Virus record (IMG/VR): IMGVR_UViG_3300037488_000888
Span: 1 to 24,446 of that record
Length of the DNA stretch: 24,446 nucleotides
Direction: 5' to 3' (one strand)
Source: a virus
Shown here one piece after another: positions 2,334 through 23,184 of the stretch (position 1 is its first letter; every line of letters starts with the position of its first letter). A program made the translations under genes and the position numbers. The notes under the pieces are model-generated. The model ran no database searches and had not been told where the DNA came from. It was given only the letters and a program-made list of their open reading frames with translations.

Positions 2334-4165
2334 GTTCCATCATTTACAATGCAGTCAGGGAAATCTTCCGCCCAACGCCTAAGCTTCAAGTAGAGGACTG
2401 GCTGCGGACGCATGTGAGGTTTGAGCGCGGGCCGATCCTTGGCGCATTTGATACTAAAAATTCTCCATGGATCAAGGAGCCGCTGACGCAGCTAAAGAAT
2501 CACGAAACACGGGAGATCATCTGCGCGTGTTCGGTGCAGTCAGCGAAGACCGCCCTGGCCGAAGGAGCCATGCTCTACTTAATAGCGGAGGAAGGCGGTG
2601 ACATGTGTCTGTACCTCCAAACCGACGAGCACGCGGACGAGTTCCTTGATACTCGGTTTAAACATCGGATTCTGGACTGCAAACCAGTCAACAAGCTGCT
2701 CGCTCGTGGGGACAAATCTATTCAGAAAAGGACGGTGGCATTCGCGCACATGACCCAGTACGTGATGGGGGCCAGCAACATCCACAACCTCCAGTCAAAA
2801 GCGGCGAAGTACGTGATTGGAGATGAGGCAGCTTACTGGCCACACGGGCACATCGACGAATCAAGGAAGCGCACAACATCTTTTGATGCGCGGAACAGTA
2901 AGCGTATCTACGTCTCTACGCCTATGAACAACTCGGGCGAGTTTTACGAGTCATTCATGGCTGGCTCATGCAGTGAATGGCAGGTGCGGTGCCCCGAATG
3001 TAACGAGCACTGGCCGATGGTCCTTTCACAATTGCGGTGGGATGGCGAAGGGTCCAAGATGGCAGACGGGAAGTACGACCTCGCTCGCATTCGGAATACC
3101 GTTCGTTACGAGTGTCCAGCCTGTCACGTCATGCTTAAGGACGATCCGAGAATAAGGAGGTCGATAGCAAACAGCGGATTTTACCTCAACCAGAACTCGG
3201 CACCAGACCCGCGCGTTAAATCCTATCACTGGAACGCGCTGACCGTGCCGTGGGTGTCATGGGACACAATAGCCAGCGAGTTTCTCAAGGCTGAATACTC
3301 ACGCAAACTAGGCGATTACTCGCCGCTGGCTGAGTTTGTGCGCAAGCGGCTGGGCGAGTTCTGGGATATGCGTGAGTTCCAGTCCGAAGAGGTCAATTTG
3401 TCGGGTTCCTTCGCTATGGAGGAGGAATGGGATCAAGAGTTTAGTCGATATATGAGCGTAGACGTGCAACGCGACTATTTCCGGGTAGTGGTGCGTTTAT
3501 GGGCTGAAAACGGCGATTCTCGGCTCTTTTACGCGGGGGAACTGCACACTTGGCAGCAATTAGTGGATTTACAGAAGAGGTTTAACATTAACGACAGTAG
3601 AGTTTTTGTTGATTGCGGTTTTGAACGCTATCAAGGTGAAGTTTATCGACAGTGCGCGGACAACCATTGGTGGGCAGTTAAAGGAGACAAAGCTCAATTT
3701 TTTACGTGGACAATCATGGATAAGAGAACTGGGCGCGCGCAACAAGTTAGAAGGCCCTACTCGCAGGTTCAATACATTGATTCTGGCGTAGGGCTTGCTC
3801 GATCAAAAGTAAGAGGAGCCAGAAAAGCAGATCTCGCTAAACGGATTGTAATGTGTTCTGATCCGATGAAGCAAATCCTGCATCGTTTACGCGCGGGACA
3901 GGGGGCATCATGGCAGGTCGCGAACAACGCTCCAAAGTACTATTATACAGAAATCCAGAACGAGGTCTTTGTTATTGAAAAAGATAAGAAAACCGGCAAA
4001 AACAAAAACTATTTCAAGAAACTGGGGCCAAACCATTCGTTTGACTGTGAAGGAATGCAAGTGATGGCGGCGTACATTGAAAAGCGGCTAGGTACGGCGG
4101 ACATATTTGAAACACCGTCGCCGAAAGCGCCACAAGCAATCGAGCAGTACGCTGTCAACGCTTGA
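2330..4165 (+). CDS. terL: terminase large subunit, GpA (lambda A) family
   Basis: This 611-residue protein has the order expected for the lambda gpA family. A deviant Walker A lies at about residues 67-74 (CSVQSAKT), and Walker B at 161-166 (YVIGDEA, with Asp165 and Glu166). Two Cys-x-x-Cys pairs (CPECNEHW and CPACHVML, about residues 220-260) look like a zinc knuckle. A C-terminal RNase H-like nuclease follows, with acidic candidates in MSVDVQRDYF, VFVDCGFERYQ and the final HSFDCEGMQV. The family packs DNA with ATP and cuts concatemers at cos ends. Part of the nuclease domain (about 3470-3830) is more AT-rich than the ATPase half. The stop codon TGA lies inside the TTGACA motif at 4162-4167 that serves the next gene. 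Confidence 0.93.
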   Translation: MSSIIYNAVREIFRPTPKLQVEDWLRTHVRFERGPILGAFDTKNSPWIKEPLTQLKNHETREIICACSVQSAKTALAEGAMLYLIAEEGGDMCLYLQTDEHADEFLDTRFKHRILDCKPVNKLLARGDKSIQKRTVAFAHMTQYVMGASNIHNLQSKAAKYVIGDEAAYWPHGHIDESRKRTTSFDARNSKRIYVSTPMNNSGEFYESFMAGSCSEWQVRCPECNEHWPMVLSQLRWDGEGSKMADGKYDLARIRNTVRYECPACHVMLKDDPRIRRSIANSGFYLNQNSAPDPRVKSYHWNALTVPWVSWDTIASEFLKAEYSRKLGDYSPLAEFVRKRLGEFWDMREFQSEEVNLSGSFAMEEEWDQEFSRYMSVDVQRDYFRVVVRLWAENGDSRLFYAGELHTWQQLVDLQKRFNINDSRVFVDCGFERYQGEVYRQCADNHWWAVKGDKAQFFTWTIMDKRTGRAQQVRRPYSQVQYIDSGVGLARSKVRGARKADLAKRIVMCSDPMKQILHRLRAGQGASWQVANNAPKYYYTEIQNEVFVIEKDKKTGKNKNYFKKLGPNHSFDCEGMQVMAAYIEKRLGTADIFETPSPKAPQAIEQYAVNA

Positions 4166-4168
4166 CAG
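4152..4168. promoter_or_regulatory. inverted repeat containing a TTGACA start-linked motif
   Basis: CTGTCAA (4152-4158) and TTGACAG (4162-4168) are perfect 7-base inverted arms around a CGC spacer, over the end of the terminase gene. The right arm is the TTGACA (4162-4167) whose first T is exactly 20 bases before the ATG at 4182. The symmetry could form a small hairpin or a protein site; only one other copy of the motif (11506) shows it. Confidence 0.5.
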
Positions 4169-4181
4169 AGAACCGGATTCT

Positions 4182-4457
4182 ATGGGCGGACCATCAATTT
4201 TACGTTATGCGTCATTGCAGTACTGCGAGACGCTTTATGAGCAGTGCCTCGCGGCGCTGGCTGATGGTCAGGGCACCATGGTCATATCGACCTCGGGCGG
4301 CGGTGAATCTGAAACGCGATCCAGCGGCAATGACGGTGGTATTCCGGTCATGACGCTGATGCGCGCAGTCATGCGACGGATGCACCAGCTCGATCCGGTC
4401 AAATATCCAGCCATCTCGAACCGACTTAAAGCAGATTTCAGCACACTCGTTCTATGA
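4182..4457 (+). CDS. small head-tail joining protein, gpW position
   Basis: I chose the ATG at 4182, giving 91 residues. An ATG at 4107 in the same frame would overlap the terminase gene by 59 bases. The TTGACA motif exactly 20 bases upstream decides it. The protein is helical at both ends (YASLQYCETLYEQCLAALAD and MTLMRAVMRRMHQL) with a polar, Gly/Ser-rich beta-like middle, which fits the helix-hairpin-helix plan of lambda gpW (68 residues). Its place between the large terminase and the portal is the conserved place of gpW-type joining proteins, which plug the portal after packaging. The gpW label rests on position and secondary-structure pattern rather than clear sequence identity. Its stop overlaps the portal ATG. 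Confidence 0.6.
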   Translation: MGGPSILRYASLQYCETLYEQCLAALADGQGTMVISTSGGGESETRSSGNDGGIPVMTLMRAVMRRMHQLDPVKYPAISNRLKADFSTLVL

Positions 4458-6106: not shown

Positions 6107-6108
6107 GA

Positions 6109-6114
6109 TTGACA
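6109..6114 (+). promoter_or_regulatory. TTGACA start-linked motif of the protease gene
   Basis: TTGACA, within the 11-mer TAAGATTGACA that begins with the portal stop codon. Its first T is 20 bases before the ATG at 6129. No -10-like box can be placed usefully, because 17 bases downstream falls on the start codon. Confidence 0.7.
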
Positions 6115-6128
6115 TTGCGGTGGCGAGT

Positions 6129-7040
6129 ATGCCAGTCACCGAAGAGCTTCAGACGTTCGCCGCATTTCAAGGAAAGGTTTCAGGAAACACCATCATGGGC
6201 GTTTCTTTGATTCAGGAAGGCCCGGCACTTGGTCACGGCGTGTTCGTGGATCGCAAGTCATTGGGTCAGTTCAAGGCTCTGGCGATGGCGAAGGGGCGGG
6301 TGAAGGCAAAGCTGAATCACTTCTCTTCTGTGCAGGACACGGTTGGATATTACGAGAATTTCCGGGTCAGCAAAGGCAAGCTCCTGGCCGATCTGACTCT
6401 ATTTGAAGCGCACGAAGGCAAGGACATGCTGCTCGAAATGATCAATGAAATTCCGGCAGCTTTTGGCGTTTCCTTGATGTTTGCGGCTGACTCTCCAGAA
6501 CTAGACAAGGAGAGCGGCAATTACATGACCCGCCCACGCGGCCTGTACTCGGCAGACTTTGTTGATACACCAGCCGCCAATGCAGATGGCGTGTTTTCGG
6601 CTGATCAGATTGACAGCGACGAACCTGTTATGGGTGACCCATCAATTCCGCCAGAAGATCCAAAGGCTGCCGAAGCTCCTTCCTTCGTTTCCGAATTTTC
6701 GGCACTGTCTGAAAAGATCGAACAATTGACCGCGCAGATGGCGGCCTACGAATCCAAGCTCGCGACCGAATGCGAGAAGATAGCCGCCGACATCAAGGCC
6801 TTTGCTGAAAAACCAGCGGCTGACGTTGAACTTCAAGCTCGCCTCGCTGCTGCTGCTCCTGCGCCGGCTGCCTTCTCCGCTCCAGTAAACGAGCAAGAAG
6901 TCGCTGCTCCAGTCATCGCTTTTACTGACGCCAAGAAAGCCGCTCTTGAAGGCAAGGTCGGACTGGAACGCATCAAGGCGGCCCGCGCTTTTTCTGAGAA
7001 GTTCCCTTCGGAAGCTTCTTACCTTTCCGCTCAATCCTAA
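6129..7040 (+). CDS. capsid maturation protease fused to scaffold
   Basis: The ATG at 6129 gives 303 residues. An in-frame ATG at 5979 would overlap the portal by 128 bases, and the TTGACA motif 20 bases upstream of 6129 supports the shorter form. Residues 1-155 resemble the herpesvirus-fold prohead proteases (S78/U35-like): VKAKLNH with His64, a LLADLTLFEAHEGKDML segment, FGVSLMF with Ser115, then a LYSADFVDTPAAN strand like the family's late conserved segment. Residues from about 168 onward are a scaffold: a coiled coil (SEKIEQLTAQMAAYESKLAT), an Ala/Pro linker and a short basic helix at the end. In this arrangement the protease is built into the procapsid and clears the scaffold. The catalytic residues are my assignment from the pattern. 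Confidence 0.8.
   Translation: MPVTEELQTFAAFQGKVSGNTIMGVSLIQEGPALGHGVFVDRKSLGQFKALAMAKGRVKAKLNHFSSVQDTVGYYENFRVSKGKLLADLTLFEAHEGKDMLLEMINEIPAAFGVSLMFAADSPELDKESGNYMTRPRGLYSADFVDTPAANADGVFSADQIDSDEPVMGDPSIPPEDPKAAEAPSFVSEFSALSEKIEQLTAQMAAYESKLATECEKIAADIKAFAEKPAADVELQARLAAAAPAPAAFSAPVNEQEVAAPVIAFTDAKKAALEGKVGLERIKAARAFSEKFPSEASYLSAQS
6610..6615 (+). promoter_or_regulatory. internal TTGACA start-linked motif inside the protease gene
   Basis: CAGATTGACAG lies inside the coding sequence, with the first T of TTGACA exactly 20 bases before an in-frame ATG at 6630. The spacing equals that of five ordinary gene starts in the window. Confidence 0.65.
6630..7040 (+). CDS. internally started scaffold protein (Nu3-like), in frame with the protease
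   Basis: An in-frame ATG at 6630, codon 168 of the protease gene, would make a 136-residue protein consisting only of the scaffold half. It contains a coiled coil at about residues 20-55, an Ala/Pro-rich linker around residues 70-90, and a final helical segment with GKVGLERIKAARAFSEKF. The start is preceded by TTGACA at the same 20-base distance seen at other starts. In lambda the scaffold Nu3 is translated from an internal start within gene C, and the domain boundary here falls in the matching place. That the internal start is used is inference; the motif, spacing and frame are seen directly. Confidence 0.6.
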   Translation: MGDPSIPPEDPKAAEAPSFVSEFSALSEKIEQLTAQMAAYESKLATECEKIAADIKAFAEKPAADVELQARLAAAAPAPAAFSAPVNEQEVAAPVIAFTDAKKAALEGKVGLERIKAARAFSEKFPSEASYLSAQS

Positions 7041-7058: not shown

Positions 7059-8000
7059 ATGGCCCAAGCTAACCTGCTCGACATCGCCAAGCTCAATGGC
7101 TCCGACACCATTGTCGGGCTCATCGAGGAAACCCTGACCTACGCTCCAGAGGTTCAGATCATGCCAGCCCGCACGATCCGCGGCACCTCGTACAAGATCG
7201 CTTCGCGCGTCTCGTATCCCGGTGTCGGCTTCCGTGCTGCTAACGAAGGCTCGACTCCAACCAAGTCCGAATTTGAGAATCAACTCATTGAGTGCTACAT
7301 CCTCAGCGGTGCAGTGCAGGCCGACGTTGCAGTCGCTCGCGCTTACGAAGACGGTGAGCAAGCGTGGAAAGACATCGAGTCGGTCGGTGTCATGCGTCAG
7401 GCGATGATCGAGCTGGGCTCCCAAGTCATCTACGGAACCAGCCATCAAGCGAAGGGCTTCCCTGGCCTGCAAGCAATTCACACCGCGTTCAACTCCGGCC
7501 TCGTGGTTGATGCTGGCGGAACCTCGGCTGGAACTGGCTCCTCGGTGTACGGCATCAACACCGACACCCAAGGCGTTCAGCTCGTCTTTGGTGCTGGTAC
7601 GACCTTTGAACTGGGTGAGTGGCGCATTGAGAACGTCGGCACCTCCTCGGTGTATCCTGCGCACGTCGCTAACTTGACCGCTTGGGTCGGGATGCAGGTC
7701 GGAAGCAAGTACAGCGTAGGCCGCCTTAAAGACGCAACCGCTGATTCTGGCATGGGTGTCACCGACGCCAAGCTGGCTGAACTCCTCAGCAAGTACCCAG
7801 TCGGCTACCGTCCGAATTACTGGCTCATGAACCGACGCTCTGCCTTCCAGTTGCAGGTCAGCCGCTCTGCAACCACCATTCAAAGCGGTGTCAAAACTTC
7901 AAGCGGTTCTGAGATCTTTGCTCCGCTGCCTACTGAGTCGAATGGCATCTCAATCGTTATCACCGACTCCATCCTCAACGATGAAGCTCTCACCGCCTAA
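7059..8000 (+). CDS. major capsid protein
   Basis: This 313-residue protein directly follows the protease/scaffold gene, where tailed phages place the HK97-fold shell protein. The sequence is regular and moderately hydrophobic. It has a helical N-terminus (LLDIAKLNGSDTIVGLIEE), an extended E-loop-like segment (TIRGTSYKIASRVSYPGVGF), a long central helix (AWKDIESVGVMRQAMIELGSQVIYG), a Gly/Thr-rich A-domain stretch around residues 150-200, and the NYWLMNRRSAFQLQVS strand-helix common in capsid A domains. No TTGACA is present. Instead the 18-base gap before the ATG holds a pyrimidine-rich TTTTTTCTTACTACC, so this abundantly needed gene appears to use a different start signal. Codon choice is strongly biased to C-ending codons, as expected for a highly expressed gene. 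Confidence 0.88.
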   Translation: MAQANLLDIAKLNGSDTIVGLIEETLTYAPEVQIMPARTIRGTSYKIASRVSYPGVGFRAANEGSTPTKSEFENQLIECYILSGAVQADVAVARAYEDGEQAWKDIESVGVMRQAMIELGSQVIYGTSHQAKGFPGLQAIHTAFNSGLVVDAGGTSAGTGSSVYGINTDTQGVQLVFGAGTTFELGEWRIENVGTSSVYPAHVANLTAWVGMQVGSKYSVGRLKDATADSGMGVTDAKLAELLSKYPVGYRPNYWLMNRRSAFQLQVSRSATTIQSGVKTSSGSEIFAPLPTESNGISIVITDSILNDEALTA

Positions 8001-8019: not shown

Positions 8020-8421
8020 ATGCCTAACGAATTCTCTCGAAACATTCAGGATGCGACGCTTAGCGTTTCGGCCACCATCCCGGCTACCGCGACTAACGCG
8101 ACAACTGATGACATTAACCTCGGCACTAACAGCAAAGGTTTTTTCACAGAAAACCACGAGCTGGAAATCTTTATTCCAGCTTTGACTAACGCGCAGCTCG
8201 GAAGCGGCGCAACGCTAACGGCGCTTGTGCAAAACGGAGCAGCAGCAACCCCGACGACCACGACCGGCATTAGTCGTGTTATCACCGGTGCTGGTGCAGG
8301 TGCTCCAGCCACTACCTTCCGCGTGCGCTTGCCTTCTGGGTCGCTTCAGTACGTGAACGTCAAGTTCACTACTTCATCTACAGGAGGCGCAGGCACTGCA
8401 ACAGTTAAATTACTGACCTAA
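8020..8421 (+). CDS. probable capsid decoration or stabilisation protein
   Basis: A 133-residue protein lies 19 bases downstream of the capsid gene and just before a strong terminator, so it is probably co-expressed with the capsid. It is rich in Thr, Ala and Gly with alternating hydrophobic residues, and looks all-beta (ATTFRVRLPSGSLQYVNVKF, then GTATVKLLT). It has no signal peptide or membrane segment. Small beta-rich proteins in this location often trim or cement the shell, as lambda gpD does, although gpD itself is not recognisable here. It also resembles in general plan the Bbp16-type capsid proteins of other phages. The role is inferred from position and composition. Confidence 0.65.
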   Translation: MPNEFSRNIQDATLSVSATIPATATNATTDDINLGTNSKGFFTENHELEIFIPALTNAQLGSGATLTALVQNGAAATPTTTTGISRVITGAGAGAPATTFRVRLPSGSLQYVNVKFTTSSTGGAGTATVKLLT

Positions 8422-8453
8422 TTTTGGTGTAGTGTGTTGATCTGTTCACGTGG

Positions 8454-8492
8454 GCGGCTGACAGGCTTCAATGCTTGTCAGCCGCTTTTTTT
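8454..8492 (+). terminator. intrinsic terminator after the capsid genes
   Basis: GCGGCTGACAGGC (8454-8466) pairs with GCTTGTCAGCCGC (8473-8485) over 13 base pairs with one G-U pair, leaving a six-base TTCAAT loop, and is followed at once by seven T (8486-8492). This is a textbook rho-independent terminator. It separates the capsid block from the connector genes, whose first ATG comes three bases after the T run. Downstream genes must rely on read-through or antitermination, since I see no promoter in the gap. Confidence 0.9.
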
Positions 8493-9991: not shown

Positions 9992-9997
9992 TTGACA
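9992..9997 (+). promoter_or_regulatory. TTGACA start-linked motif of the tail tube gene
   Basis: TAAGATTGACA again starts with the stop codon of the previous gene; TTGACA begins exactly 20 bases before the ATG at 10012. The 11-mer is identical to that at 6104 and 16581. Confidence 0.7.
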
Positions 9998-10011: not shown

Positions 10012-10416
10012 ATGCCCGCCGTCGATGCACTCATTCAACACGGAAACATTCCTCTCTCCTCTTTAGAAGATGAGAGCAATGCCCTCACTCCAGACATTCT
10101 GGTTCAGTCTTTGACTATTACCGCCGCAAGGGATGAGAAGGCTTACCTGAACGCTGCTGGCGCGACCTTCGGGCTTGAGTACCGCAACCCGACGATTACC
10201 TTCGCGTTCGATGGTTACTTGTCCAACAAAACGCTTGGGTTGGCTAACAAGCACCCCGGAACTGCGGTGACCACGCTGGCCAACTTTACCGTTCTCACTT
10301 ACGGATTCGATCCGAATGACGGCACTATGATTTTCATGGACCCGAACCGCACGGAGACCAACACCGAGATGGCGAAAACAACCTTCTCAGTGAAGCAGTA
10401 CCCATTCGTCGTCTAA
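10012..10416 (+). CDS. probable major tail (tube) protein
   Basis: This 134-residue protein is preceded by the TTGACA motif and lies between the tail terminator candidate and the chaperone frameshift pair, where siphophages keep the tail tube protein. It is rich in Thr, Ala and Asn with clear beta alternation: ILVQSLTITAARDEKAYLNA, ATFGLEYRNPTITFAFDGYL, LANFTVLTYGFDPND, and KTTFSVKQYPFVV at the end. Tube proteins of this size form stacked hexameric beta-barrel rings. I see no extra Ig-like domain. The call rests on position, size and all-beta composition. Confidence 0.65.
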   Translation: MPAVDALIQHGNIPLSSLEDESNALTPDILVQSLTITAARDEKAYLNAAGATFGLEYRNPTITFAFDGYLSNKTLGLANKHPGTAVTTLANFTVLTYGFDPNDGTMIFMDPNRTETNTEMAKTTFSVKQYPFVV

Positions 10417-10418
10417 TT

Positions 10419-10820
10419 ATGGAAAGCTGGATCGCTTGCACGGACGTTGATGTGGCGTCTGCTTTTATGACGATGGGCGTTGTCATGAAGCCGGTGGTGC
10501 AGGTCAGGGCGGACAGCGGAAAGGAGTACGTGACCATGTACCTTTCCACGACTTCGGTGACGATGCCGGAGATTAACGTGGGGCACCTGATGAAGGCGCT
10601 GATGTCGGGGGAGCTGCAAAAGCTCGATCCGAACCACGAGTTGCTGGGGTATCTGATGGCGATCAAAAACAGACACGCTGCCAAGCGCGCACTTGACTCA
10701 GCAGAGCGCCAAGTGCTAATTACGAGGAAGGGCACCACTCGGACCGCTTACGTTCGCGAATCCATTACCAACAAAGGAATGGAAATGGCTGACCGATTCC
10801 TTGCCACTGGCAGACCATGA
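10419..10820 (+). CDS. hypothetical tail gene between tube and chaperone
   Basis: A 133-residue protein begins two bases after the tube stop and overlaps the next gene by ATGA. The first half alternates short strands (VVMKPVVQVRADSGKEYVTM) with an STTSVTMPEINV loop. The second half is helical (GHLMKALMSGELQKLDPNHE, then a HAAKRALDSAERQVLI stretch) and ends in KGMEMADRFLATGRP. There is no membrane segment or known motif. It has no counterpart in the lambda order, where the gene after the tube protein is G. A tail assembly role is likely from position, but I do not recognise it. Confidence 0.6.
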   Translation: MESWIACTDVDVASAFMTMGVVMKPVVQVRADSGKEYVTMYLSTTSVTMPEINVGHLMKALMSGELQKLDPNHELLGYLMAIKNRHAAKRALDSAERQVLITRKGTTRTAYVRESITNKGMEMADRFLATGRP

Positions 10821-11269
10821 TCGACATTCAAACCCAAGAAGACGACGGAGTTTCATTAGTTGACCTGCCAAACGAGCAGGAACAACGCAGAACAGACGCA
10901 TTCAATGCGGCGTACCACTGGAAAGGGAAAGAGTTTGAAGGCATCTCCTGTTCACGCAAAGACATCTGGGTGTCGATGTGCCACAAGTCCGGCTTCCCTT
11001 CGCTAGACGCCTGTTTCGATGAGTTCTCGCTATTCGCACCACTGAGCAAAGTGCTGATATTCGTCTGCATCACGCCCACCGCACAACTGCGAAAGCTGCG
11101 GGCTCAAGGCATCCAAGCGTTGATTGATGCGTGCGACGATTGGATCGACGCCAATATCAAGATCTCGGAAGAACGCGATGCAATCAGCCTTGGCCTGCGT
11201 ATCCTGAACGACTCGACGGCCAATCAATCCGAGGTGGTGCCTACAGCCGGCTCCGAGGGAAAGCACTAG
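10817..11269 (+). CDS. tail assembly chaperone, G-like
   Basis: The zero-frame product has 150 residues and ends at TAG 11267-11269, two codons after the slippery heptamer GGGAAAG. An acidic N-terminus (IQTQEDDGVSLVDLPNEQEQ) is followed by mixed helices (WVSMCHKSGFPSLDACFDEF), a hydrophobic LSKVLIFVCITPTAQLRKLR segment and a helical QALIDACDDWIDANIKISEE stretch. In lambda-type phages gpG and its frameshifted form gpGT bind the tape measure protein and guide tube assembly around it. The location just before the tape measure gene and the frameshift signal make the call strong although the sequence is not obviously lambda-like. Confidence 0.8.
   Translation: MIDIQTQEDDGVSLVDLPNEQEQRRTDAFNAAYHWKGKEFEGISCSRKDIWVSMCHKSGFPSLDACFDEFSLFAPLSKVLIFVCITPTAQLRKLRAQGIQALIDACDDWIDANIKISEERDAISLGLRILNDSTANQSEVVPTAGSEGKH
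11257..11263 (+). promoter_or_regulatory. -1 ribosomal frameshift slippery site GGGAAAG
   Basis: In the zero frame the site reads G GGA AAG, followed by CAC and the stop TAG. GGGAAAG is the same heptamer used at the lambda G/T junction. Slipping back one base lets GGA and AAG re-pair as GGG and AAA, and continues into the open frame that ends at 11514. Confidence 0.85.
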
Positions 11270-11514
11270 CTAGTCCGGTCTTTCAGGCGCACTACGTGTC
11301 ACTGGTGCGACCCATCACGGGTCTGACCGAACAGGAGATTCTGTGGGAGCTGCCACTTGCGCGCGGGCTCGCTTACCTGCACATGGCGCTCATCCAGCAG
11401 GGTATCGAAACCCAGTGGGTCGGTCATGACATGATGGAGGACGAAACCATCAAGAACGCCATGGATTACATCCAGCGGCGGAAGTCGAACCGCCTTGTCA
11501 ATGTATTGACATAA
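11263..11514 (+). CDS. T-like extension of the tail chaperone, made by -1 frameshift
   Basis: This frame has no plausible start of its own near its beginning: the only ATG upstream (11131) would give a basic, low-quality N-terminus read in the wrong frame of the G gene. Entered by a -1 slip at 11257-11263, it adds 83 residues to the first 149 of the G product, giving a 232-residue GT fusion. The extension begins ALASPVFQAHYVSLVRPITG and continues with helical segments (LTEQEILWELPLARGLAYLH and ETIKNAMDYIQRRK). It corresponds to the T domain that recruits tail tube subunits in lambda. Its last codons, TTG ACA TAA, contain the start-linked motif for the tape measure gene. Confidence 0.8.
   Translation, partial: ALASPVFQAHYVSLVRPITGLTEQEILWELPLARGLAYLHMALIQQGIETQWVGHDMMEDETIKNAMDYIQRRKSNRLVNVLT
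11496..11511. promoter_or_regulatory. TTGACA start-linked motif within an inverted repeat
   Basis: TGTCAA (11496-11501) and TTGACA (11506-11511) are perfect inverted arms around TGTA. The TTGACA begins 20 bases before the tape measure ATG at 11526 and lies in the last two sense codons of the T extension plus nothing of its stop. An AAAGGG at 11513-11518 is the only Shine-Dalgarno-like string near this start. Confidence 0.6.
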
Positions 11515-11525: not shown

Positions 11526-13298
11526 ATGGCTGCTACGCTAGACGCATCTCTTAGGCTCGATTCCAGTCAATTCACGGCTGGGCTTGGCAACGCAATGAAG
11601 AGCACCAACTCTGCGGTGTCGAAGATGTCGTCGGCGTTTGAAGCGTTGAAAAACATTGCGGTGGGTGGGGTGATTGGATCGACTTTTATGGAGGTGGCTA
11701 AAAGCGTCACCAATACCTACATTGAAGCGGAAAAACTCCAGAATGCACTAAAAGCCACAGCGGGCAGCGACATCCTTGGGATGCAGCAATATCAAGAGCT
11801 CAAAAGGCTCTCATCTGAAATTGGGTTAAACATGAGCGTTGCGGCAAAAGCAACACTTCAACTCCAAGCTGCGGGCATGAGTGCGGCTGACGCATTTAAG
11901 ACGATCAGAACACTTCAGAACGCGATCCGTTCTGGCGGTGGAGGAAATGAAGAGCTAGGCCGTTTCATCTACGGATTACAACAGCTTTACGCATCGCCTA
12001 AGCCGCTGGCCGAAGAACTTGGACAGTTGAAAGAAGCACTTCCGGTCACGGCCAAACTTTTACGTGAAGCGTTTGGATCGGCGAGGGCTGAGGACTTGCA
12101 GAAGCTCAACTTGAGCGGAAAGCAAGTGGCTGAGACATTGCTGAAAATGGCTGAGACAATGCCGAAAATGGCGCGCGGGCTAGGGGGCGAACTTGATGCG
12201 CTAAATGCAAAGTTTAACAATCTAAAGGAAACGATAGGTCAATCATCTTCTCAGATCTTAAAGCCAGCGGCCACTGGAACATCGTTTTTGCTAGACGTTC
12301 TTAATCTTTACCTGCAAATCAACAAGGCAGGCAAAGAGGCAAACGAGCTTAGATCAAATGGAGTTGATTTTGGCGTTGAAGAAGAAGACCAAAGAAAACT
12401 CCTTCGCGCATTAGAAACGCAAAAAAAGGTTGAAACAGACCGATTGAAAGCGACAGAAGAAAAAGCAAAACTGCAAGAGAAGCTCGATCAAGGGAACAAA
12501 GAGAATGCAGAGCTGGACCGTGCGCGCTGGCAATGGGAAGAGCAGTTCAAAAACGAGCAGCTCGCCAAGGACAAGCAAGCACAAGACGACGCCAAGAAGG
12601 CAGCCGATCAATCCATCTCGGATGCGAAGGAGCTACTAAGCCTGCACGAGGACACTGTACGCAAAATCAAAAGCGTACAGGAAGCCGTTTATTCGGCGCA
12701 GCAATCCATGGCCGGAACGGATGAAGAGAAGCTGGCCAATGCCAAAAAAGCACTGGAGGCAGAGGGCAATTTGCTGATGGGCGATGATCCTGGCGGATTC
12801 GATGCGCTAACCGAGTCGGCGTTCGAGGATGCGGTCAAAAACGGTCGCAATGTGACCGAAGGACAGGTTGAGCAGTACAACCGCATTATCGGGCTCAAGC
12901 AGGAGATTCTCGGTCTTGAGGAAAGTATTACACAGGAAGCCAAAAGCGGAGCGGCTGAACTGCGCGACCAGAACCGCGAAGCCGTTCAACGCTCAATCGA
13001 GAAGGCTGGCCGCACACCCGCCGAGAGAAAGCAGGAGATGCGGGACAATAACGACATGCAGCGGCAGCGCCGGCGCGCTTTTAATGATGACGTGCGGGAT
13101 GAGATGACCCGGCTGAAGAAGGAGGCTGAGAAAGCCAATGAAGGAAAACCAATCATGGAACGAGAAAGGACAGACCGAGAAGCCTTTAGGGATGCAGCAA
13201 GAGGAAACATCACAAGGAAATGGCAAAGCGCACTTCCTGAAGCCGCGCAAACATTGACCGACATCAAGGCCATCCTGAATAAACTCGCCACCGCCTAA
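11526..13298 (+). CDS. tail tape measure protein
   Basis: This is the longest protein in the window at 590 residues, and it follows the G/GT pair as expected. The N-terminal third has the pattern of the tape measure domain: LRLDSSQFTAGLGNAMKSTN, an ALKNIAVGGVIGSTFMEVAK segment, LSSEIGLNMSVAAKATLQLQ, and ALPVTAKLLREAFGSARAEDL. From about residue 270 it becomes long charged helices, rich in Lys, Glu, Gln and Ala, compatible with extended coiled coil, to the C-terminus. No lytic domain is visible. With the usual rule of thumb of about 0.15 nm per residue, tail length would be roughly 90 nm, which is short for a siphovirus. The TTGACA motif sits 20 bases before the ATG. Confidence 0.88.
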   Translation: MAATLDASLRLDSSQFTAGLGNAMKSTNSAVSKMSSAFEALKNIAVGGVIGSTFMEVAKSVTNTYIEAEKLQNALKATAGSDILGMQQYQELKRLSSEIGLNMSVAAKATLQLQAAGMSAADAFKTIRTLQNAIRSGGGGNEELGRFIYGLQQLYASPKPLAEELGQLKEALPVTAKLLREAFGSARAEDLQKLNLSGKQVAETLLKMAETMPKMARGLGGELDALNAKFNNLKETIGQSSSQILKPAATGTSFLLDVLNLYLQINKAGKEANELRSNGVDFGVEEEDQRKLLRALETQKKVETDRLKATEEKAKLQEKLDQGNKENAELDRARWQWEEQFKNEQLAKDKQAQDDAKKAADQSISDAKELLSLHEDTVRKIKSVQEAVYSAQQSMAGTDEEKLANAKKALEAEGNLLMGDDPGGFDALTESAFEDAVKNGRNVTEGQVEQYNRIIGLKQEILGLEESITQEAKSGAAELRDQNREAVQRSIEKAGRTPAERKQEMRDNNDMQRQRRRAFNDDVRDEMTRLKKEAEKANEGKPIMERERTDREAFRDAARGNITRKWQSALPEAAQTLTDIKAILNKLATA

Positions 13299-13943: not shown

Positions 13944-14822
13944 ATGCTGCCAGAACTCCCAGTCATCGACCCGAAGGTCAACGGCGCGCGCGCGGGCGGA
14001 CTGCTCAACCGGTTGGTGGATCGCATCAAGCTCCAGCGGCTTCTCAGCTCGGAAACGGTCATCATCACCGAGACCAAGGACGGGCAGATCATCGACCGGC
14101 TCGGCTCTGGCGGAGTGGCCGCTCTTTTCGCTCTAGGCTTCGCCGTGTCGCTCGACGGCACCAATGTGGTAGTCGCACCCGGCAGGCTGCTGTACCCGCT
14201 CTGGGGTGCCATTCTGGGCGATAATCCGACGCCGGGCGACTGGCAAAAGGAAGTCAATTACATCGGCGGCACCTTGACGGGCACGGTGACACAAGTCTGG
14301 CTCAGTGTACTATGGTCGGAAAGCGACACCACTACGACCGGGCCGCTCGGTACGACCACCTACAACATCTCTGGCGCGGCAGGCGGACGAGGCGGCGGCG
14401 GTGGTGGTGGTGGCGCGGCTGCGGGCTTGCAACCGGATATCCGTGGGACGGCGGGAGATGCGGGCGAGAATGGCGACGGGACTGGCCTAGGCGGTAACGG
14501 TGGCATCGTGCTCGACTACGACACCGACCCGCCGACGCCAGTGACCGGGCTTGGCAACAGCTACGGTGCCAGCGGGGGCGCCGGCGGTGTGGGTGGTGCT
14601 GGCGGCGCAGGTGGAAGCACTACCTTTACGCGCGCGACCAAGGCAACCGCGCAGATCCGTAAGTGGTCGATCAACGGGATCTCGCTACACACAGCAAAAG
14701 GCACTGCTAGTCAGGCGGCATCATGGATTCAACTGGCGACCATTAGCGGCACCAGCATCACGCAGCATGTGGCGGGCAGCATCTCAATCACGCCCCCGGC
14801 CATCACTTTCATTATCGCCTGA
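13944..14822 (+). CDS. glycine-rich tail adhesin-like protein, paralogue 1
   Basis: First of three tandem paralogues, 292 residues. The N-terminal part (about 1-55) has a helix (GLLNRLVDRIKLQRLLS) and a strand with the shared ET..G element (VIITETKDGQII). A beta middle follows to about residue 143. Residues 144-225 are very rich in Gly (a run of eight, then NGDGTGLGGNGG and GGAGGVGGAGGAGG), compatible with polyglycine II helices. The C-terminal domain (237-290) begins QIRKWSING and holds the shared ITQHVAGSISI and final PAITFI. The glycine block resembles that of known phage adhesins with polyglycine sandwiches, but identity is inference. Its TGA overlaps the ATG of paralogue 2. Confidence 0.7.
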   Translation: MLPELPVIDPKVNGARAGGLLNRLVDRIKLQRLLSSETVIITETKDGQIIDRLGSGGVAALFALGFAVSLDGTNVVVAPGRLLYPLWGAILGDNPTPGDWQKEVNYIGGTLTGTVTQVWLSVLWSESDTTTTGPLGTTTYNISGAAGGRGGGGGGGGAAAGLQPDIRGTAGDAGENGDGTGLGGNGGIVLDYDTDPPTPVTGLGNSYGASGGAGGVGGAGGAGGSTTFTRATKATAQIRKWSINGISLHTAKGTASQAASWIQLATISGTSITQHVAGSISITPPAITFIIA

Positions 14823-15715
14823 TGCTGCCAGACATTCCAAACTTCAACCTGGGCGACGTGTACGTCTTGACCGGCAAAACGCTCGAAAAGATCGTGCGGC
14901 GGATCAAGATGCAGAAGCCAATCGAAGGTGCCAACATCCGGCTGGAAGAGACGAATGCGGGTATCCTGCTACATGCCGACCAGCAGGTGCAGGTGGCGCC
15001 AACGGTCGCAATCAATCACGACTTCAAGGCAACGTCACCCGCATTCAACACGCTGGACATCGCTGCTGGCAAAGTCTACGGCATCGAGTGGGGCACGCCA
15101 AGTATGAGCAACCCGCTGCCGACAAACTGGCTGGCGCAGCAGGCGAGTATCGGGCTGACCACTCTTTCGGTTCCGTCTGGCAGTAGCGTGTGGCTACGCA
15201 TCCAGCTCTCACAGACCGACGTAAACATGAGCGGCGCGCTCTCAGCTACGGGAGCGACAACGCTATCGGTCACGACCGGGGGCGGAGGTGCGGGTGGTGA
15301 CGGTGGCGGCGGTGGAGCCGGGGGAGATGGCACAGCCGGCTATGCTGGTGCTGCGGGTGAAGCTGCATCCGGCCAGACTGCCGGAGATCCGGGGACAGGC
15401 ACCCTGGGCGGAAGTAACGGGAACGAGAACTCAGGCACAGCAGCGGAAGGTGGGGACGGCGGAGATGGTGCTGCGGGTGGCGACGGACAGGTCAAATCGT
15501 TTACGCACTACACAACCCTGCTGATGGTGTTTCGTCGCTGGCAGGTCACGTCTGCCAGTCTTGTCGTCTCAGCCAGCAAGCCAACCGCATCGCCTGCCAG
15601 CAACATCTACATTCGGATCGCGTCTCAGACTGACGGAGTGGTCACACAGTACCACGCAGGCTCTTATCACATCACGCTGCCAGCAGCTACCTTTATCAGC
15701 TCCTTTGTTCCCTGA
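14822..15715 (+). CDS. glycine-rich tail adhesin-like protein, paralogue 2
   Basis: The middle paralogue has 297 residues and starts on the last base of the previous stop. It has the clearest N-terminal domain of the three: MLPDIPNFNL, then a GKTLEKIVRRIKMQKPIEGA helix and IRLEETNAGILL. The glycine-rich block (about 153-222) is more varied, with many Gly-Asp, Gly-Ala and Gly-Gly pairs. The C-terminal domain starts at VFRRWQVTSASLVV and ends YHAGSYHITLPAATF. These blocks align with those of its neighbours, which shows tandem duplication followed by strong divergence. It is likely a tail fibre or tip component exposed on the virion; the ligand is unknown. Confidence 0.7.
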   Translation: MLPDIPNFNLGDVYVLTGKTLEKIVRRIKMQKPIEGANIRLEETNAGILLHADQQVQVAPTVAINHDFKATSPAFNTLDIAAGKVYGIEWGTPSMSNPLPTNWLAQQASIGLTTLSVPSGSSVWLRIQLSQTDVNMSGALSATGATTLSVTTGGGGAGGDGGGGGAGGDGTAGYAGAAGEAASGQTAGDPGTGTLGGSNGNENSGTAAEGGDGGDGAAGGDGQVKSFTHYTTLLMVFRRWQVTSASLVVSASKPTASPASNIYIRIASQTDGVVTQYHAGSYHITLPAATFISSFVP

Positions 15716-16583
15716 TTTTCCCAACTTCTTCGGCAACCTGCATTATTTCCTCAAGGGAAAGACGCTGGCCATGTTTCGCAAGGCCATTTATGAGCAGATG
15801 CCGATTGCTGGCAACGGTATCACTCTGCAAGAGACCGACGACGGCATCATCGTTTCAAGCAAGCAAGGCAAAGCGACGGCCACTTCCAGCGTTATCGACT
15901 TCACCGGCATTCTGTCCGGCGAGAACGTCGTCATTCAAGGCGGCAAAGTGCTGGGAGTCTCGTGGAGCACGTACACGCCAAACAACCCTAGCAGCGGCGG
16001 GTGGACTGAGACGGTGGCGACGGTAGCAGGCACAACTCTTGCAGTGGCCACCGGTTTCACGATCTGGCTCAAGATCACATTTGTACCGACAACAAACCCG
16101 GTGGTAGGCGCACTCTCATCGGCTGATCAAGAGACTTTGACCGTGGTTGGTGGGACGGGCGGTGGAGGCGGAGGTGGCGGCGGAGGTGCTGCGGGTGGCA
16201 GGACGACCGGCGGTGACGGAGTGAATGGCACAGTCGGAGCCAACGGCACAGCCGGCACTCCTGGAGCAGGTGGTGCAGGCGGAGCGGCGGGAACAAATTC
16301 GCCAAGTTCCGGCGGACTAGAGGAGGGCGGAAACGGCGGATCTGGTGGCTACGGCGAAGGAGGCGACACAGGCCTAGAGGTGTTTTTTCAAAACTACGCC
16401 AAGGCCGCAGCACAGATTCGGCGGTGGACGGTATCCGCTGCGGTGCTGGAGGTGCACTCGTCGGCGCCAGCGGCAAGCGCGACAGTGGCATATCTGCCGA
16501 TGTTGAGCCGATCCGGATCGACCATCACGCACCACCAAGTCGGCAGCGTGTTTATCAGCCTGCCAAGCGTGACCTTCATCTAA
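15705..16583 (+). CDS. glycine-rich tail adhesin-like protein, paralogue 3 (TTG start)
   Basis: There is no ATG where the paralogue should begin. A TTG at 15705 gives an N-terminus FPDFPNFFGNLHYFLKGKTL that aligns with LPDIPNFNLGDVYVLTGKTL of paralogue 2, so I take it as the start (292 residues, 11-base overlap with the previous gene). An ATG at 15770 within KTLAM would remove the conserved segment. The helix and ITLQETDDGIIVS element follow, then a beta middle, a glycine-rich block (about residues 150-225, with ten Gly in a row near its start), and the C-terminal QIRRWTVSAAVLEVHSS ... ITHHQVGSVFISLPSVTFI domain. The function is as for its neighbours. Confidence 0.68.
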   Translation: MFPDFPNFFGNLHYFLKGKTLAMFRKAIYEQMPIAGNGITLQETDDGIIVSSKQGKATATSSVIDFTGILSGENVVIQGGKVLGVSWSTYTPNNPSSGGWTETVATVAGTTLAVATGFTIWLKITFVPTTNPVVGALSSADQETLTVVGGTGGGGGGGGGGAAGGRTTGGDGVNGTVGANGTAGTPGAGGAGGAAGTNSPSSGGLEEGGNGGSGGYGEGGDTGLEVFFQNYAKAAAQIRRWTVSAAVLEVHSSAPAASATVAYLPMLSRSGSTITHHQVGSVFISLPSVTFI

Positions 16584-16585: not shown

Positions 16586-16591
16586 TTGACA
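16586..16591 (+). promoter_or_regulatory. TTGACA start-linked motif upstream of a tail gene pair
   Basis: Third identical copy of TAAGATTGACA, beginning with the stop of the third glycine-rich gene; TTGACA starts 20 bases before the ATG at 16606. Confidence 0.7.
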
Positions 16592-16605: not shown

Positions 16606-17358
16606 ATGCCGAACATCTTCGCGTTGACGCTGAAAGCGCAAAACAGTTATCCGGGCAACTCGGTCATTCCCTCCGCAACTCAGCAGGTGCCGGACTTGAT
16701 CGTTCGTGAGGAAAGTTTGATCTCTGGCGTGTTCGAGGTGTTTGGGAATAGCACAACCTCAACCAACTCTCTGGCCACCAGCGGCACGACGGTCAACTCA
16801 GTCCTGGCCGGTGGAAGCGCAATTGCTCTGACTAACCCTATCACGAATGCGACCTTGGCATTCAACTACTGGCGCGGGCTTTACATCACGGTCACGCAGC
16901 GTGACCCATTAGTGGAACCTGCTTCGGTGCGTCCTACAGCAACATCCACAACTTCGCTCCTGATCGAGGTCGCGTCTAAAGCCTTCACTGTTGCGGCGTC
17001 ACTTGGCTACGTGGTGGGGATGCGAGTACGTGCAACATCCGCAGCCAACGCGGCCAACTTCATGGAAGGCACGGTAACAAGCTATGCAACCACAGTCTTG
17101 ACTGTTGCGGTCGATACGATTGGCGGCACTGGCACTCTGGCCGACTGGACGATCACCGGCCTGATCTGCGCGCAGATCCAGAGCAACGGGTTTGGCGGGG
17201 TGGTTACCAATACTGTCGTTCCGCTGCCAATCTACGAAGGCGGCTCGTTCATTTACAGCACACCGACAGGCCGCAAGTCAGCAACCACTCAAACGCTGAC
17301 CATCCTCCTTAACGGCACAACCGGTCTTAACGTCAACGTGTTGGTTTTAGGCTCCTAA
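16606..17358 (+). CDS. tail protein with inserted beta module, paralogue A
   Basis: This 250-residue protein is all-beta by pattern and a paralogue of the next gene. The N-termini match (MPNIFALTLKAQNSYPGNSV against MPSTFKLSTLLQNSYAASAV), as do the C-termini (GGSFIYSTPTGRKSATTQTL against GGVLNIYNPSAGNSVATTDV). Unlike its partner it holds an extra module at about residues 108-184, with the hallmarks of a module common in phage tail proteins: KAFTVAASLGYVVGMRVRA, then FMEGTVTSYATTVLTVAV and GTGTLADWTITG. A virion surface role near the tail tip is likely. I do not know its ligand. Confidence 0.65.
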   Translation: MPNIFALTLKAQNSYPGNSVIPSATQQVPDLIVREESLISGVFEVFGNSTTSTNSLATSGTTVNSVLAGGSAIALTNPITNATLAFNYWRGLYITVTQRDPLVEPASVRPTATSTTSLLIEVASKAFTVAASLGYVVGMRVRATSAANAANFMEGTVTSYATTVLTVAVDTIGGTGTLADWTITGLICAQIQSNGFGGVVTNTVVPLPIYEGGSFIYSTPTGRKSATTQTLTILLNGTTGLNVNVLVLGS

Positions 17359-18747: not shown

Positions 18748-18751
18748 CTTT

Positions 18752-19060: not shown

Positions 19061-19161
19061 TGCCAACGCTCCCCGCATTCCTTCACGCTGCTTTTTTTGC
19101 TCTTATGGTTGTATGCTGGTTTTTCATGCTTGGCTGGATACTGAGTTCATTTTCCCCATGA
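19060..19161 (+). CDS. 33-residue single-span membrane peptide
   Basis: TGATG at 19058-19062 joins the previous stop to this ATG, and ATGA at 19158-19161 joins its end to the endolysin, so both ends are coupled. The product is PTLPAFLHAAFFALMVVC followed by WFFMLGWILSSFSP after the initiator Met. It has one strongly hydrophobic span of about 23 residues, few charges and several Phe and Trp. Its size and placement directly before the endolysin suit a lysis accessory, small pinholin-like or antiholin-like peptide. It is short enough that automated gene finders may skip it. Confidence 0.55.
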   Translation: MPTLPAFLHAAFFALMVVCWFFMLGWILSSFSP

Positions 19162-20272: not shown

Positions 20273-21996
20273 GTGCCGTTACTACGCCAAGAAATGTTTC
20301 CCTGATTCAACGCGACGCCTCCGGAGACAATCAATGGATTGATCTGCTAGGGACGGCCAACACGAACAAGGCGATTGGGTTCAATGGGTCGGGCGTGATT
20401 ACTACGCTTTCGGCGGCGCTTGTGGGAACGGCCAACACCTTCACCACTGACCAGACGATTCAAGGCAAGCTGACGGTGCGTGCGGTAGTTGGCACGGATG
20501 TGAGTGTGGCGGCTTCTGCTATCGACTGGGCGACGAGCACGAGCTTTTACAAAACGCTAGCGGCAAACACGACTTTCACATTCGCCAACGCGCTACCGGG
20601 TCAAGGGATCACGGTTGCAATTACCAACACGAGCGGCAACTACATCGTCACGTGGCCGGGGACAATCAAATGGCCGAACGACTCAATCCCGGTGCAAAGC
20701 ATCGGTGCGAGGACGGATGTTTACTCATTCCGCAACATCAATGGCATCGTCTATGGTGCGGTCGCGCAGAGCGCCGGCGGAACTGAATCATTCGCTAACA
20801 CGCAGGCGCGCTTGGCGTCGGTTCCTTACAAGCTCGGCCTGATCGGTGTGCAGGTCGATACGCTGGAGGTCTGGGTTTCTGTCGGGCTCACGGCTGGCGA
20901 CTGGCAGATGATCAGCGGTGCCGGTGGAGTGCCACCATCGCACACGCATTCGTTTTCTGAGGTGCATTCGCTCCCAACGGTGGCACCGTCACTGACCGAC
21001 ACAATCGGCATTCCCCTGGGCGATGCAGGAGGTTCTCTCTCGCACTGGGCATCAATCAATCTCCTGCTGGATCTAGCGCGGGTGCCGCGTTCTGGGCGCG
21101 ACACGCTGCTCTCTCTTAATGATGCAGGCGTTACTCTCACGGATGCGCAGATCGTCGCAATCAACACGTTCTACCAGTACGTGGACGCCATGGGCATGAT
21201 CAGCGGCAATACCAGCCGATCACGCTTGATGCTGCCAGTCTGGGCAAACAACATGCAAGCCAACCTGCTGGACTGGCTGCACCCGGCAAGCTCTAGCCGA
21301 CCATTCATTCGCAACGCATCCACGGGTGCAAACAATGCTGGTGACTTCACACAGCCGGGCGGGTACATCGCGCCAACCGGAATTGCAAACTCCGGCATGA
21401 TCGACTTTGACTCAACCGTGGCACAAGTATGGGAAGAAACGGATTATTCCTTAACCTACTATTCGCACTCGCCACCGCTGACGGACGACAACACGATGAT
21501 CGGAGCGCGGAACGATACCGTGTCGGGCGGAACCAACAGGTGGTTCACCACATCACGCAGCACGACCACGCCGGGAGTGTTCCGGGCAGCGGTCGGATCG
21601 ACCGGCGGGAGTTTGCATGTGAACTTGGGTCTGCCAGAACTTTATGTGGGTGGAACGGTTGGCGCACTCAATCCGCTGGGCTTGATTCACTTTGCTCGCA
21701 AGGGCACTTTATTCAGCACCCGGCGGCGTTTAGCGGCAGGCATTATAGACACGACGGATTTGACGACCTCAAACGTCAACGCAAACGCGACGATCAGGGA
21801 CAACAAGCTGGGCGGGTTTCTCTTTTACAACGGCAACACAACCGGCAGCCTACTCGGTCCGGGTGGCATCCTGCACAACCAGCCTTCGTCTCTCTTCTAT
21901 CTTGGCCGGGCCATTGGTACTACTGGCGCGGCAACGGATACTTTCTCTTTGATGCTTTTCAATCTGGCCATTGCAATGGGGGCTCCTTCAGTATGA
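20269..21996 (+). CDS. tail fibre protein
   Basis: This 575-residue protein overlaps its neighbours by ATGA at both ends. Its N-terminal third has repeated short strands typical of phage fibres: an ANTNKAIGFNGSGVITTLSA segment, LTVRAVVGTDVSV, ALPGQGITVAITNTSGNYIV, and WPGTIKWPN. The middle (about residues 180-245) includes LGLIGVQVDTLEVWVSVGLT and a short Gly-rich linker. The C-terminal half looks like a jelly-roll sugar-binding or carbohydrate-acting module, with a YYSHSPPLTDDNTMIGARND stretch and several Trp and Tyr. No catalytic signature is evident. It is likely a host-binding fibre, co-expressed with the phosphodiesterase gene that follows. Confidence 0.7.
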   Translation: MSAVTTPRNVSLIQRDASGDNQWIDLLGTANTNKAIGFNGSGVITTLSAALVGTANTFTTDQTIQGKLTVRAVVGTDVSVAASAIDWATSTSFYKTLAANTTFTFANALPGQGITVAITNTSGNYIVTWPGTIKWPNDSIPVQSIGARTDVYSFRNINGIVYGAVAQSAGGTESFANTQARLASVPYKLGLIGVQVDTLEVWVSVGLTAGDWQMISGAGGVPPSHTHSFSEVHSLPTVAPSLTDTIGIPLGDAGGSLSHWASINLLLDLARVPRSGRDTLLSLNDAGVTLTDAQIVAINTFYQYVDAMGMISGNTSRSRLMLPVWANNMQANLLDWLHPASSSRPFIRNASTGANNAGDFTQPGGYIAPTGIANSGMIDFDSTVAQVWEETDYSLTYYSHSPPLTDDNTMIGARNDTVSGGTNRWFTTSRSTTTPGVFRAAVGSTGGSLHVNLGLPELYVGGTVGALNPLGLIHFARKGTLFSTRRRLAAGIIDTTDLTTSNVNANATIRDNKLGGFLFYNGNTTGSLLGPGGILHNQPSSLFYLGRAIGTTGAATDTFSLMLFNLAIAMGAPSV

Positions 21997-23171
21997 ACAA
22001 CCGCGAACCATATCTTGCCGAACTTCGCTCACATCGTGGCAACCTTTTAGGTCAGCCAGAACACACCGTGCAGAGCTACACGGCAGTCTCTAAGGCGGGA
22101 GCCGCGATGATCGAGCTTGACCTGCATCTGACATCTGACGGCGTGCCGGTCTGTATCCACGATGCAACGGTGGATCGCACGACCAACGGAACAGGAACGG
22201 TGGTGAGCAAAACGCTGGCACAGATCAAGGCGCTGGACGCGGGCGTTGACTTCGGGCCATCATATGCTGGGCAACAGGTGCCGACGCTGGTGGAGGCATT
22301 GCTGGCGATTAAACCGTATCGCGTGCGGGTCATGATCGAGCCGAAGGTCGGCGGCACAGAGAACGCCATGCTGAACGCGATGCAGCAAGCGGGATTCCCA
22401 CTGGAGCGCGTGACATTGCTGGCCGGTCTCTTCTTCCCGTCGGTGACTGCCGCGACCATGCGGCCATACTTTCCAACGGTGCCGATCTACTGGATCGCGA
22501 CGGGGCCGCCATCGGCGATTGGTGAGACCGCGCTTGTGGCTTTCAAAAACCAAGGATACGACGGCATCTCATACTGGCCTCCTGCTGGTGGAGCGGTATG
22601 GGGGCCAGAAGAGACCGCGCTAATGCAAAGGCTCAGTCTTGGCTATGCGCGGTACGGATTGGCTGGCGGGGCATCTGAGATCTTTGGCAGCGGCGCGAAT
22701 GTTTACCTAACCGACGACCCGACAACGGCGGTCTCAACCGTGGCCACCGCCAACTTCACCGCATTCAAGGCAGCTTATGCAATCACGGTTGGCAGTGACG
22801 GCCTGTACAACGATCCGGATGGCGACGGCTTCACGAACTTTGAAGAGATGATCTATGGGGGAAACCCGATGTCGTCGCGCAGGCTTCCAGCGACAGGCCC
22901 GTCAGTGCAGATCGTGGAAGCGGGTGGAGTGCGGACGGCATTCCTGACAGCCACACCAGCCGCCACCAGAATGTTCGTCACTTGGTACTTCGCTCCTCAG
23001 TGGAGCGACGACGGCATCACATGGACGGACGTGCCAAGCACTTCGTTCACCGCTCTCAATGATGGGTATCCTCGGGACTTGAGTCACCGGTTTGTGGTCG
23101 ATATGGGGCCGGTGCTGCCAACCAACACGAAGCGGGTGCGGCTCTATCCGAAGCTGTTCCCAATGCCTTAA
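21993..23171 (+). CDS. tail-associated glycerophosphodiester phosphodiesterase
   Basis: The ATG at 21993 overlaps the fibre stop (ATGA), giving 392 residues. The GDPD active-site set is present: HRG at 14-16 (His14, Arg15), EHT at 23-25 where the family has Glu-Asn-Thr, IELDLHLTSDGVPVCIHD with Glu41, Asp43 and His56, and IEPK with Glu115 and Lys117. A canonical calcium loop, DPDGDGFTNFEE (273-284), follows the catalytic domain, and a beta domain of about 100 residues ends the protein. GDPD enzymes break glycerophosphodiester bonds, and as tail parts can cut polyglycerol-phosphate polymers or other cell-surface phosphodiesters. The Asn-to-His change in the EHT motif is unusual. The true substrate is unknown. 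Confidence 0.85.
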   Translation: MNNREPYLAELRSHRGNLLGQPEHTVQSYTAVSKAGAAMIELDLHLTSDGVPVCIHDATVDRTTNGTGTVVSKTLAQIKALDAGVDFGPSYAGQQVPTLVEALLAIKPYRVRVMIEPKVGGTENAMLNAMQQAGFPLERVTLLAGLFFPSVTAATMRPYFPTVPIYWIATGPPSAIGETALVAFKNQGYDGISYWPPAGGAVWGPEETALMQRLSLGYARYGLAGGASEIFGSGANVYLTDDPTTAVSTVATANFTAFKAAYAITVGSDGLYNDPDGDGFTNFEEMIYGGNPMSSRRLPATGPSVQIVEAGGVRTAFLTATPAATRMFVTWYFAPQWSDDGITWTDVPSTSFTALNDGYPRDLSHRFVVDMGPVLPTNTKRVRLYPKLFPMP

Positions 23172-23178
23172 CCTCCGA

Positions 23179-23184
23179 TTGACA
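23179..23184 (+). promoter_or_regulatory. TTGACA motif upstream of the 80-residue tail gene (25-base spacing)
   Basis: CGATTGACATC lies in the 32-base gap after the phosphodiesterase gene. Its first T is 25 bases before the ATG at 23204, a longer spacing than the other copies. Confidence 0.4.

Follow-up and report, generated by a model that had tools for sequence, protein, structure and literature searches.

TTGACA sites at gene starts in a late gene module

The DNA analysed here is a 24,446-bp stretch of a viral genome (IMG/VR record IMGVR_UViG_3300037488_000888, positions 1 to 24,446; 55.5% GC), referred to as the window. The element in question is the hexamer TTGACA, which recurs in the window at a fixed distance before start codons. 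Judged by its gene content, the window corresponds to the late module of a lambda-like siphophage, with genes predicted to encode TerS, TerL, portal, protease, capsid and tail proteins on the + strand. Spacing is counted from the first T of TTGACA to the start codon. The hexamer occurs eight times on the + strand and four times on the − strand, all at the positions given in a first-pass annotation made from the sequence alone. Six of the eight + copies have an ATG at a spacing of exactly 20 (4182, 6129, 6630, 10012, 11526 and 16606), and the remaining two have one at 22 (18233) and at 25 (23204); a recount returned the same spacings as that annotation. It had treated all six as gene starts, but 6630 does not begin a separate gene and is an in-frame internal start of the gene at 6129. 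The sites and the genes that they precede are as follows (nt, nucleotides; aa, amino acids; ORF, open reading frame).

4162..4167, +: TTGACA, 20 nt before ATG 4182 (gene A); overlaps the TerL stop codon
4182..4457, +: gene A, ORF for a small protein (91 aa) between TerL and portal; the positional orthologue in phage P8625 is gp08
6109..6114, +: TTGACA, 20 nt before ATG 6129 (gene B)
6129..7040, +: gene B, head maturation protease/scaffold-like (weak match to phrog_976, E 6e-4)
6610..6615, +: TTGACA within gene B; the in-frame internal start C (6630) follows at 20 nt
6630..7040, +: C, the C-terminal 136 aa of gene B, read in the same frame as B; the arrangement is like that of the lambda Nu3 scaffold
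9992..9997, +: TTGACA, 20 nt before ATG 10012 (gene D)
10012..10416, +: gene D, 134 aa, tail module; ORF with orthologues
11506..11511, +: TTGACA, 20 nt before ATG 11526 (gene E)
11526..13298, +: gene E, 590 aa, tape measure protein by position and length; no PHROG match
16586..16591, +: TTGACA, 20 nt before ATG 16606 (gene F); found in long relatives
16606..17358, +: gene F, ORF of 250 aa
18211..18216, +: TTGACA, 22 nt before ATG 18233; also coding for the upstream gene
23179..23184, +: TTGACA, 25 nt before ATG 23204 (80-aa ORF)

Of the 87,800 pairs of hexamer and spacing tested in the window, TTGACA at 20 is the most extreme (binomial 5.3e-10; approximately 5e-5 after Bonferroni correction), which bears out the earlier view that chance would not place the copies at gene starts. 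In 200,000 random placements, a common spacing is reached by at most four of eight sites. A search of the window for TTGACA followed by ATG at 20 returns six matches on the + strand and none on the − strand, and the reversed pattern returns none. The reverse-complement copies are unrelated to starts, as had been noted. Shine-Dalgarno (SD) sequences are largely absent, also as noted, with an SD-like 4-mer at 3 of the 29 starts in the window and 3.6 expected by chance. Three copies of the hexamer lie in an identical 11-mer, TAAGATTGACA. This repeat had been singled out before and is present, but it is partly explained by its composition: the TAA that ends the upstream gene, then GA, then TTGACA. 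In the relative G002, TAAGATTGACA occurs at the same spacing (25) as the window site at 23179.

Distribution of the motif in phages and host chromosomes

A search with TerL returned 53 viral loci, nearly all of them 81–100% identical. In these relatives, 103 of 211 distinct TTGACA contexts have an ATG-initiated ORF at exactly 20, every one on the coding strand. Both hexamer and spacing are kept in all distinct orthologous contexts of genes A (32/32), B (31/31) and D (22/22), and the spacer sequence varies. Genes that lack the motif in the window never carry it at 20 in the relatives. Full contigs of approximately 40 kb contain five or six exact-20 sites each. In the two contigs read gene by gene, these sites are confined to the structural half. 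Use of the motif by early genes was rejected, as the early half of these window-clade contigs contains no sites.

The spacing is strictly 20 in the window clade and 19–22, rarely up to 26, in related clades. A relative with 56% identity (L135) has spacings of 19, 20, 20, 20 and 20, and clades at approximately 25% TerL identity have spacings of 19–26. A genome scan returned host genomes from Opitutae, Akkermansia, Omnitrophota and a few others. The first scan of genome contigs, which used a single TerL, gave no matches. An Akkermansia prophage (L159) contains several sites at 19–20, and Omnitrophota prophages with a related TerL contain no motif. Among 288 TTGACA in 80 viral relatives of L159, there are 48, 47, 22 and 42 distinct sites at 19, 20, 21 and 22, respectively, and the controls are flat. 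Scanning for the DNA pattern only (two motif-ATG units approximately 500 nt apart) reached further distant phages, with 28–35% TerL/portal identity and nested B/C starts at 20. Nested motif-bearing B/C starts, arranged as in lambda C/Nu3, recur in three distant phages (L319, L359 and L377) with both motifs at 20.

The Akkermansia-type clade has 219 sites, at spacings of 19–22, before genes from 87 protein families; in the window clade the motif precedes 19 families. Spacers vary in both. The Akkermansia-type consensus is (G)TTGACAC-N9-GG-Y, followed by ATG or GTG. The second element is a G at index 16–17 from the first T, and the frequency of G at index 17 is.81,.60,.56 and.75 at spacings of 19, 20, 21 and 22. 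At all four spacings, the G element keeps its distance to TTGACA and not to the ATG. The motif is therefore a rigid element of approximately 18 bp before the start codon, relative to which it may float by 0–3 nt. This clade tolerates essentially no mismatch in the hexamer. Exact TTGACA occurs at 132 sites at 19–22 versus 3 at 29–32, and one-mismatch hexamers are not enriched (59 versus 58), with TTGACG alone slightly raised. No conservation was found upstream from −80 to −13, so that no other promoter is locked to the site. The spacer is GC-rich (70% versus 59% upstream), and an AT-rich melting region is thus absent.

The motif is phage-specific and is not a host signal. In 400 kb of an Akkermansia genome, sites at 19–20 occur only in or beside the prophage, with no 19–20 peak elsewhere. 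Outside the prophage, the same 400 kb has a small peak at 35, the spacing of leaderless sigma70 promoters. Motif counts were made in 145 Verrucomicrobiota genomes and the spacing control was run in 14, 12 of them from the 145. In these 14 genomes, a spacer of 13–16 is about as frequent as the 8–11 control. Together with the Akkermansia 400 kb, this control rules out host-wide use. The first-pass annotation had allowed that the signal could belong to the host lineage, which does not hold for the host chromosomes tested. It had also proposed a test for TTGACA enrichment at −20 in related phages and candidate hosts; the relatives show it, the hosts tested do not, and other phage clades use 19–22.

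Phage P8625, from a Puniceicoccales host, has no sites at 19–22. Instead, TTGACA is found at −36 in four genes, among them gp08. In the P8625 clade, genes A and D have TTGACA at 34–42 nt, and many members have a −10-like box 16–18 nt after TTGACA. In several relatives the box is at 17 nt, with 6–8 nt to the ATG. These boxes and spacings resemble leaderless sigma70 promoters. The P8625 paper does not mention promoters. In L060 (P8625; 5412, 10736 and 15558), L080, L090 and L157, a palindrome (GTATCCA-n5-TGGATAC) lies between TTGACA (−36 to −39) and the ATG. Other members of the clade lack the palindrome; it was folded and is not used in the explanation below. It may be an operator overlapping the −10 region or a hairpin that masks the start codon. 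In L092–L096, L151–L153, L156 and L158, the gene A start codon lies inside a terminator-like hairpin, with the left arm upstream and the right arm and T run in the first codons. The two arms change together in L092–L096, L151 and L153. Leadered transcripts of gene A would be silenced in these groups.

The candidate reader protein

In bacteria, TTGACA is read by region 4 of the sigma factor. In a hidden Markov model comparison between the clades, one shared non-structural family stands out, with members of 120–240 aa encoded just before the late genes. This sigma4-like protein is found in all 18 long motif-bearing contigs (E 2e-14 or better), including G038, a sequence outside the profile, and L319, which was found by DNA pattern alone. 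It was not detected in P8625. The window contains the end of the gene.

1..189, +: C-terminal part of the sigma70-region-4-like protein (last 62 residues), open ORF; the N-terminus lies outside the window and the full homologue is L007:136-612

The C-terminal half reads ...SMTEIAKRHGVTRAAVSKRCVELTEKLGLNPSRAMR..., which in our own comparison is close to sigma70 region 4.2. Pfam Sigma70_r4 (PF04545) matches 5 of 19 members (best 7.1e-6) and TIGR02937 sigma70 matches 7 of 19 (best 1e-3); neither is among the matches listed for the window-clade member L007. PHROG sigma factor families also match the protein. RpoD region 4 is the top result of a PDB sequence search (E 0.02). The fold search is headed by sigma region 4 with a VIA Z of approximately 6, a score shared with other helix-turn-helix (HTH) folds, and the match is weak for the window-clade model. 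Sigma70_r2 is not among the 25 most frequent of the 36 Pfam families, and the N-terminal half has no recognised domain.

No single-subunit RNA polymerase (PF00940) was found in 29 record searches, in which the control genomes were likewise without a match. In three phages, Pfam scans covering most non-structural genes list neither a sigma factor nor a PF00940 polymerase. Beside the sigma4-like gene, positions 843-1424 encode a conserved 193-aa protein with a distant likeness to akkF016 of the Akkermansia-type phages (hhalign probability 84%).

Level of action and candidate mechanisms

Divergent gene pairs carry back-to-back motifs that are 7–10 bp apart, each 19–21 nt from its own start, with approximately 45–50 bp between the start codons. 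They occur in independent genomes with differing partner genes opposite the ParB-like gene (names from sequence reading).

L238: ParB-like/nuclease-like
L250, L481: ParB-like/RuvC-like
L490: ParB-like/TerS-like
L513, L520, L529: further divergent pairs

Divergent genes share no mRNA, and the back-to-back motifs therefore favour action on DNA. Starts with the motif are also more structured than other starts (unpaired 0.434 versus 0.52–0.53); selection for RNA accessibility was rejected, the trend being if anything opposite. The signal probably acts at the DNA level.

Several specific candidates were rejected. For an RNA hairpin in the spacer, the pairing shows no covariation. For 16S complementarity, one full-length Verrucomicrobiota 16S read (L454) lacks GUGUCAA and has a normal anti-SD. 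Phage-encoded ribosomal protein bS21 is absent from 20 contigs. A sigma70 promoter with its −10 inside the gene is incompatible with the lack of a −10-like column after TTGACA, and the start codon would fall within the promoter; the first-pass annotation had already pointed out that the −10 would fall on the start codon, and a conventional −35/−10 reading is impossible at this spacing. For a sigma54-like −24/−12 promoter, suggested by a resemblance to TTGGCAC, the second element is at the wrong distance.

We give about even chances to a phage-specific late promoter that is read by the sigma4-like protein and yields leaderless or nearly leaderless mRNAs. TTGACA at 19–22 nt before the start codon (exactly 20 in the window clade) would be the recognition half of this promoter. 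The sigma4-like protein would be made before the late genes, bind TTGACA on DNA and bring host RNA polymerase, and transcription would begin at the start codon or no more than a few nt from it, with the polymerase opening the DNA very near the motif. The products would be leaderless or nearly leaderless mRNAs of selected structural genes or gene groups. Downstream overlapping genes would be translated by coupling, and the internal scaffold start C would have its own mRNA. In the Akkermansia-type clade, removal of the leader raises accessibility at the start codon by 0.167, versus 0.102 in controls.

Several points weigh against a promoter of this kind. Region 4 bound to TTGACA normally sets the start approximately 35 bp downstream, which is 15 bp inside these genes. 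The GC-rich clade has no −10 element, leaving the positioning of the polymerase unexplained. Uncoupling is also seen in several motif-free genes, the major capsid gene among them. The gain on leader removal in the window clade (0.098 versus 0.130) is not above controls. The sigma4-like match is statistically modest, as is the fold Z, and the MarR, AsnC and KorA HTH families also score. The co-occurrence of motif and protein could reflect common descent. A more specific form of the proposal, which we hold tentatively, is that a factor with little beyond a sigma region 4 reads a single TTGACA and sets a start approximately 20 bp downstream, exactly at the start codon, with no −10, such that the 20-bp cassette would be the whole control region of each late gene.

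Alternatively, TTGACA may be an operator, an asymmetric site for a phage regulator (a prophage late-gene repressor, stoperator-like, or an activator) with promoters elsewhere or cryptic. The single orientation, the positions at gene starts and the strict, short sequence are as expected of such a site, some sites have TGTCAA/TTGACA pairs, the Akkermansia-type phages are prophages with recombinases, and the HTH protein may simply be a regulator. Cluster A mycobacteriophage stoperators are asymmetric repressor sites that are oriented with transcription, have a TGTCAA core and are not known to keep a fixed distance to start codons. An operator in general requires no such distance, yet the spacing is exactly 20 at six genes across many alleles. 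No other conserved promoter element occurs within 80 bp upstream, and there is little space for separate promoters in the approximately 50 bp that lie between divergent starts. We consider an operator doubtful. Stoperators of this cluster are mentioned in PMC4351075.

Slightly less probable, and in our judgement unlikely, is a translation-initiation element, UUGACA 13–16 nt before the start codon, whose reader would be the ribosome or an RNA-binding factor of the phage, and which would replace the SD on a polycistronic late mRNA. The first-pass annotation had preferred a translational role. Its view that the signal is real and linked to the start codon stands. Orientation and spacing are fixed relative to the start codon, such an element would also work at an in-frame internal start, several motif genes lie within an apparent single late operon, and both an SD excess and a −10 element are lacking. 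The translational role fares less well, given the divergent pairs, the locking of the G element to TTGACA, the more structured starts, the absence of a covarying spacer hairpin, a 16S complement (in the single read) and bS21, the lack of motif use in the host genes tested, and the co-occurring sigma4-like protein. Chance or inheritance of one ancestral sequence has a negligible probability: the window alone has eight sites and the relatives are homologous, but enrichment across the 19 and 87 protein families with varying spacers refutes it, and the DNA-pattern scan reached distant phages with the same nested arrangement.

No published report of the motif was found in open-access papers, in line with the earlier remark that no named signal with this spacing is known. 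The nearest published pattern is the Start-Associated Sequences (SAS) of Cluster K mycobacteriophages, a 13-bp element (GGGATAGGAGCCC) 3–7 bp from the start with an SD core, located in the non-structural half and of unknown function (PMC3203893). Both are short, asymmetric, phage-only repeats in a single orientation at the start codons of many genes in one genome half. Unlike the SAS consensus (AGGAG, 3–7 bp), TTGACA lies at 19–22, in the structural half and without an SD. ArpU/RinA/LtrA and T4 gp33/gp55 are phage late regulators. Phage-encoded sigma factors of phiEco32 and 7-11 are treated in PMC8948821. The likeness is a protein of the phage by which host RNA polymerase is redirected to later gene classes, and here the candidate is encoded near the packaging genes; the difference is that here there are many single-element sites directly at start codons, with no visible −10. 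In Akkermansia, 10% of transcription start sites give leaderless mRNAs (PMC4782308). The leaderless sigma70 promoters of Verrucomicrobia (Akkermansia, PMC4782308) and the P8625 clade share TTGACA before the same late genes, A and D, and place the start codon where the 5′ end of the RNA is expected, but they have TTGACA at 34–42, often with a −10-like box, whereas here it is at 19–22 without a box.

If true, the late-promoter proposal would explain how, without SD or ordinary late promoters, structural genes are switched on in a large group of Verrucomicrobia phages, Akkermansia prophages included, most of which are uncultured. Should the sigma4-like protein prove to be the reader, it offers a directly testable case of promoter recognition outside the −35/−10 geometry. 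The motif also provides a simple sequence rule for start-codon correction and late-gene finding in these genomes.

Other features of the window were noted in passing. A strong terminator-like hairpin at 8452-8487 (15 pairs, T run) follows the capsid gene at 7059 and the gene at 8020, and is kept in relatives. The listed ORF start at 8471 lies inside this hairpin and is probably not a real start. The tape measure gene is preceded, at 10817-11514, by two ORFs that overlap and resemble a frameshifted tail assembly chaperone pair (G/GT-like). Positions 13944-16583 and 21996-23171 contain related genes in tandem that are very rich in glycine over some stretches (tail fibre-like) and a GDPD-like protein in which a DPDGDGFTNFEEMIYGGNP stretch occurs; motifs of this type are common in Verrucomicrobia.

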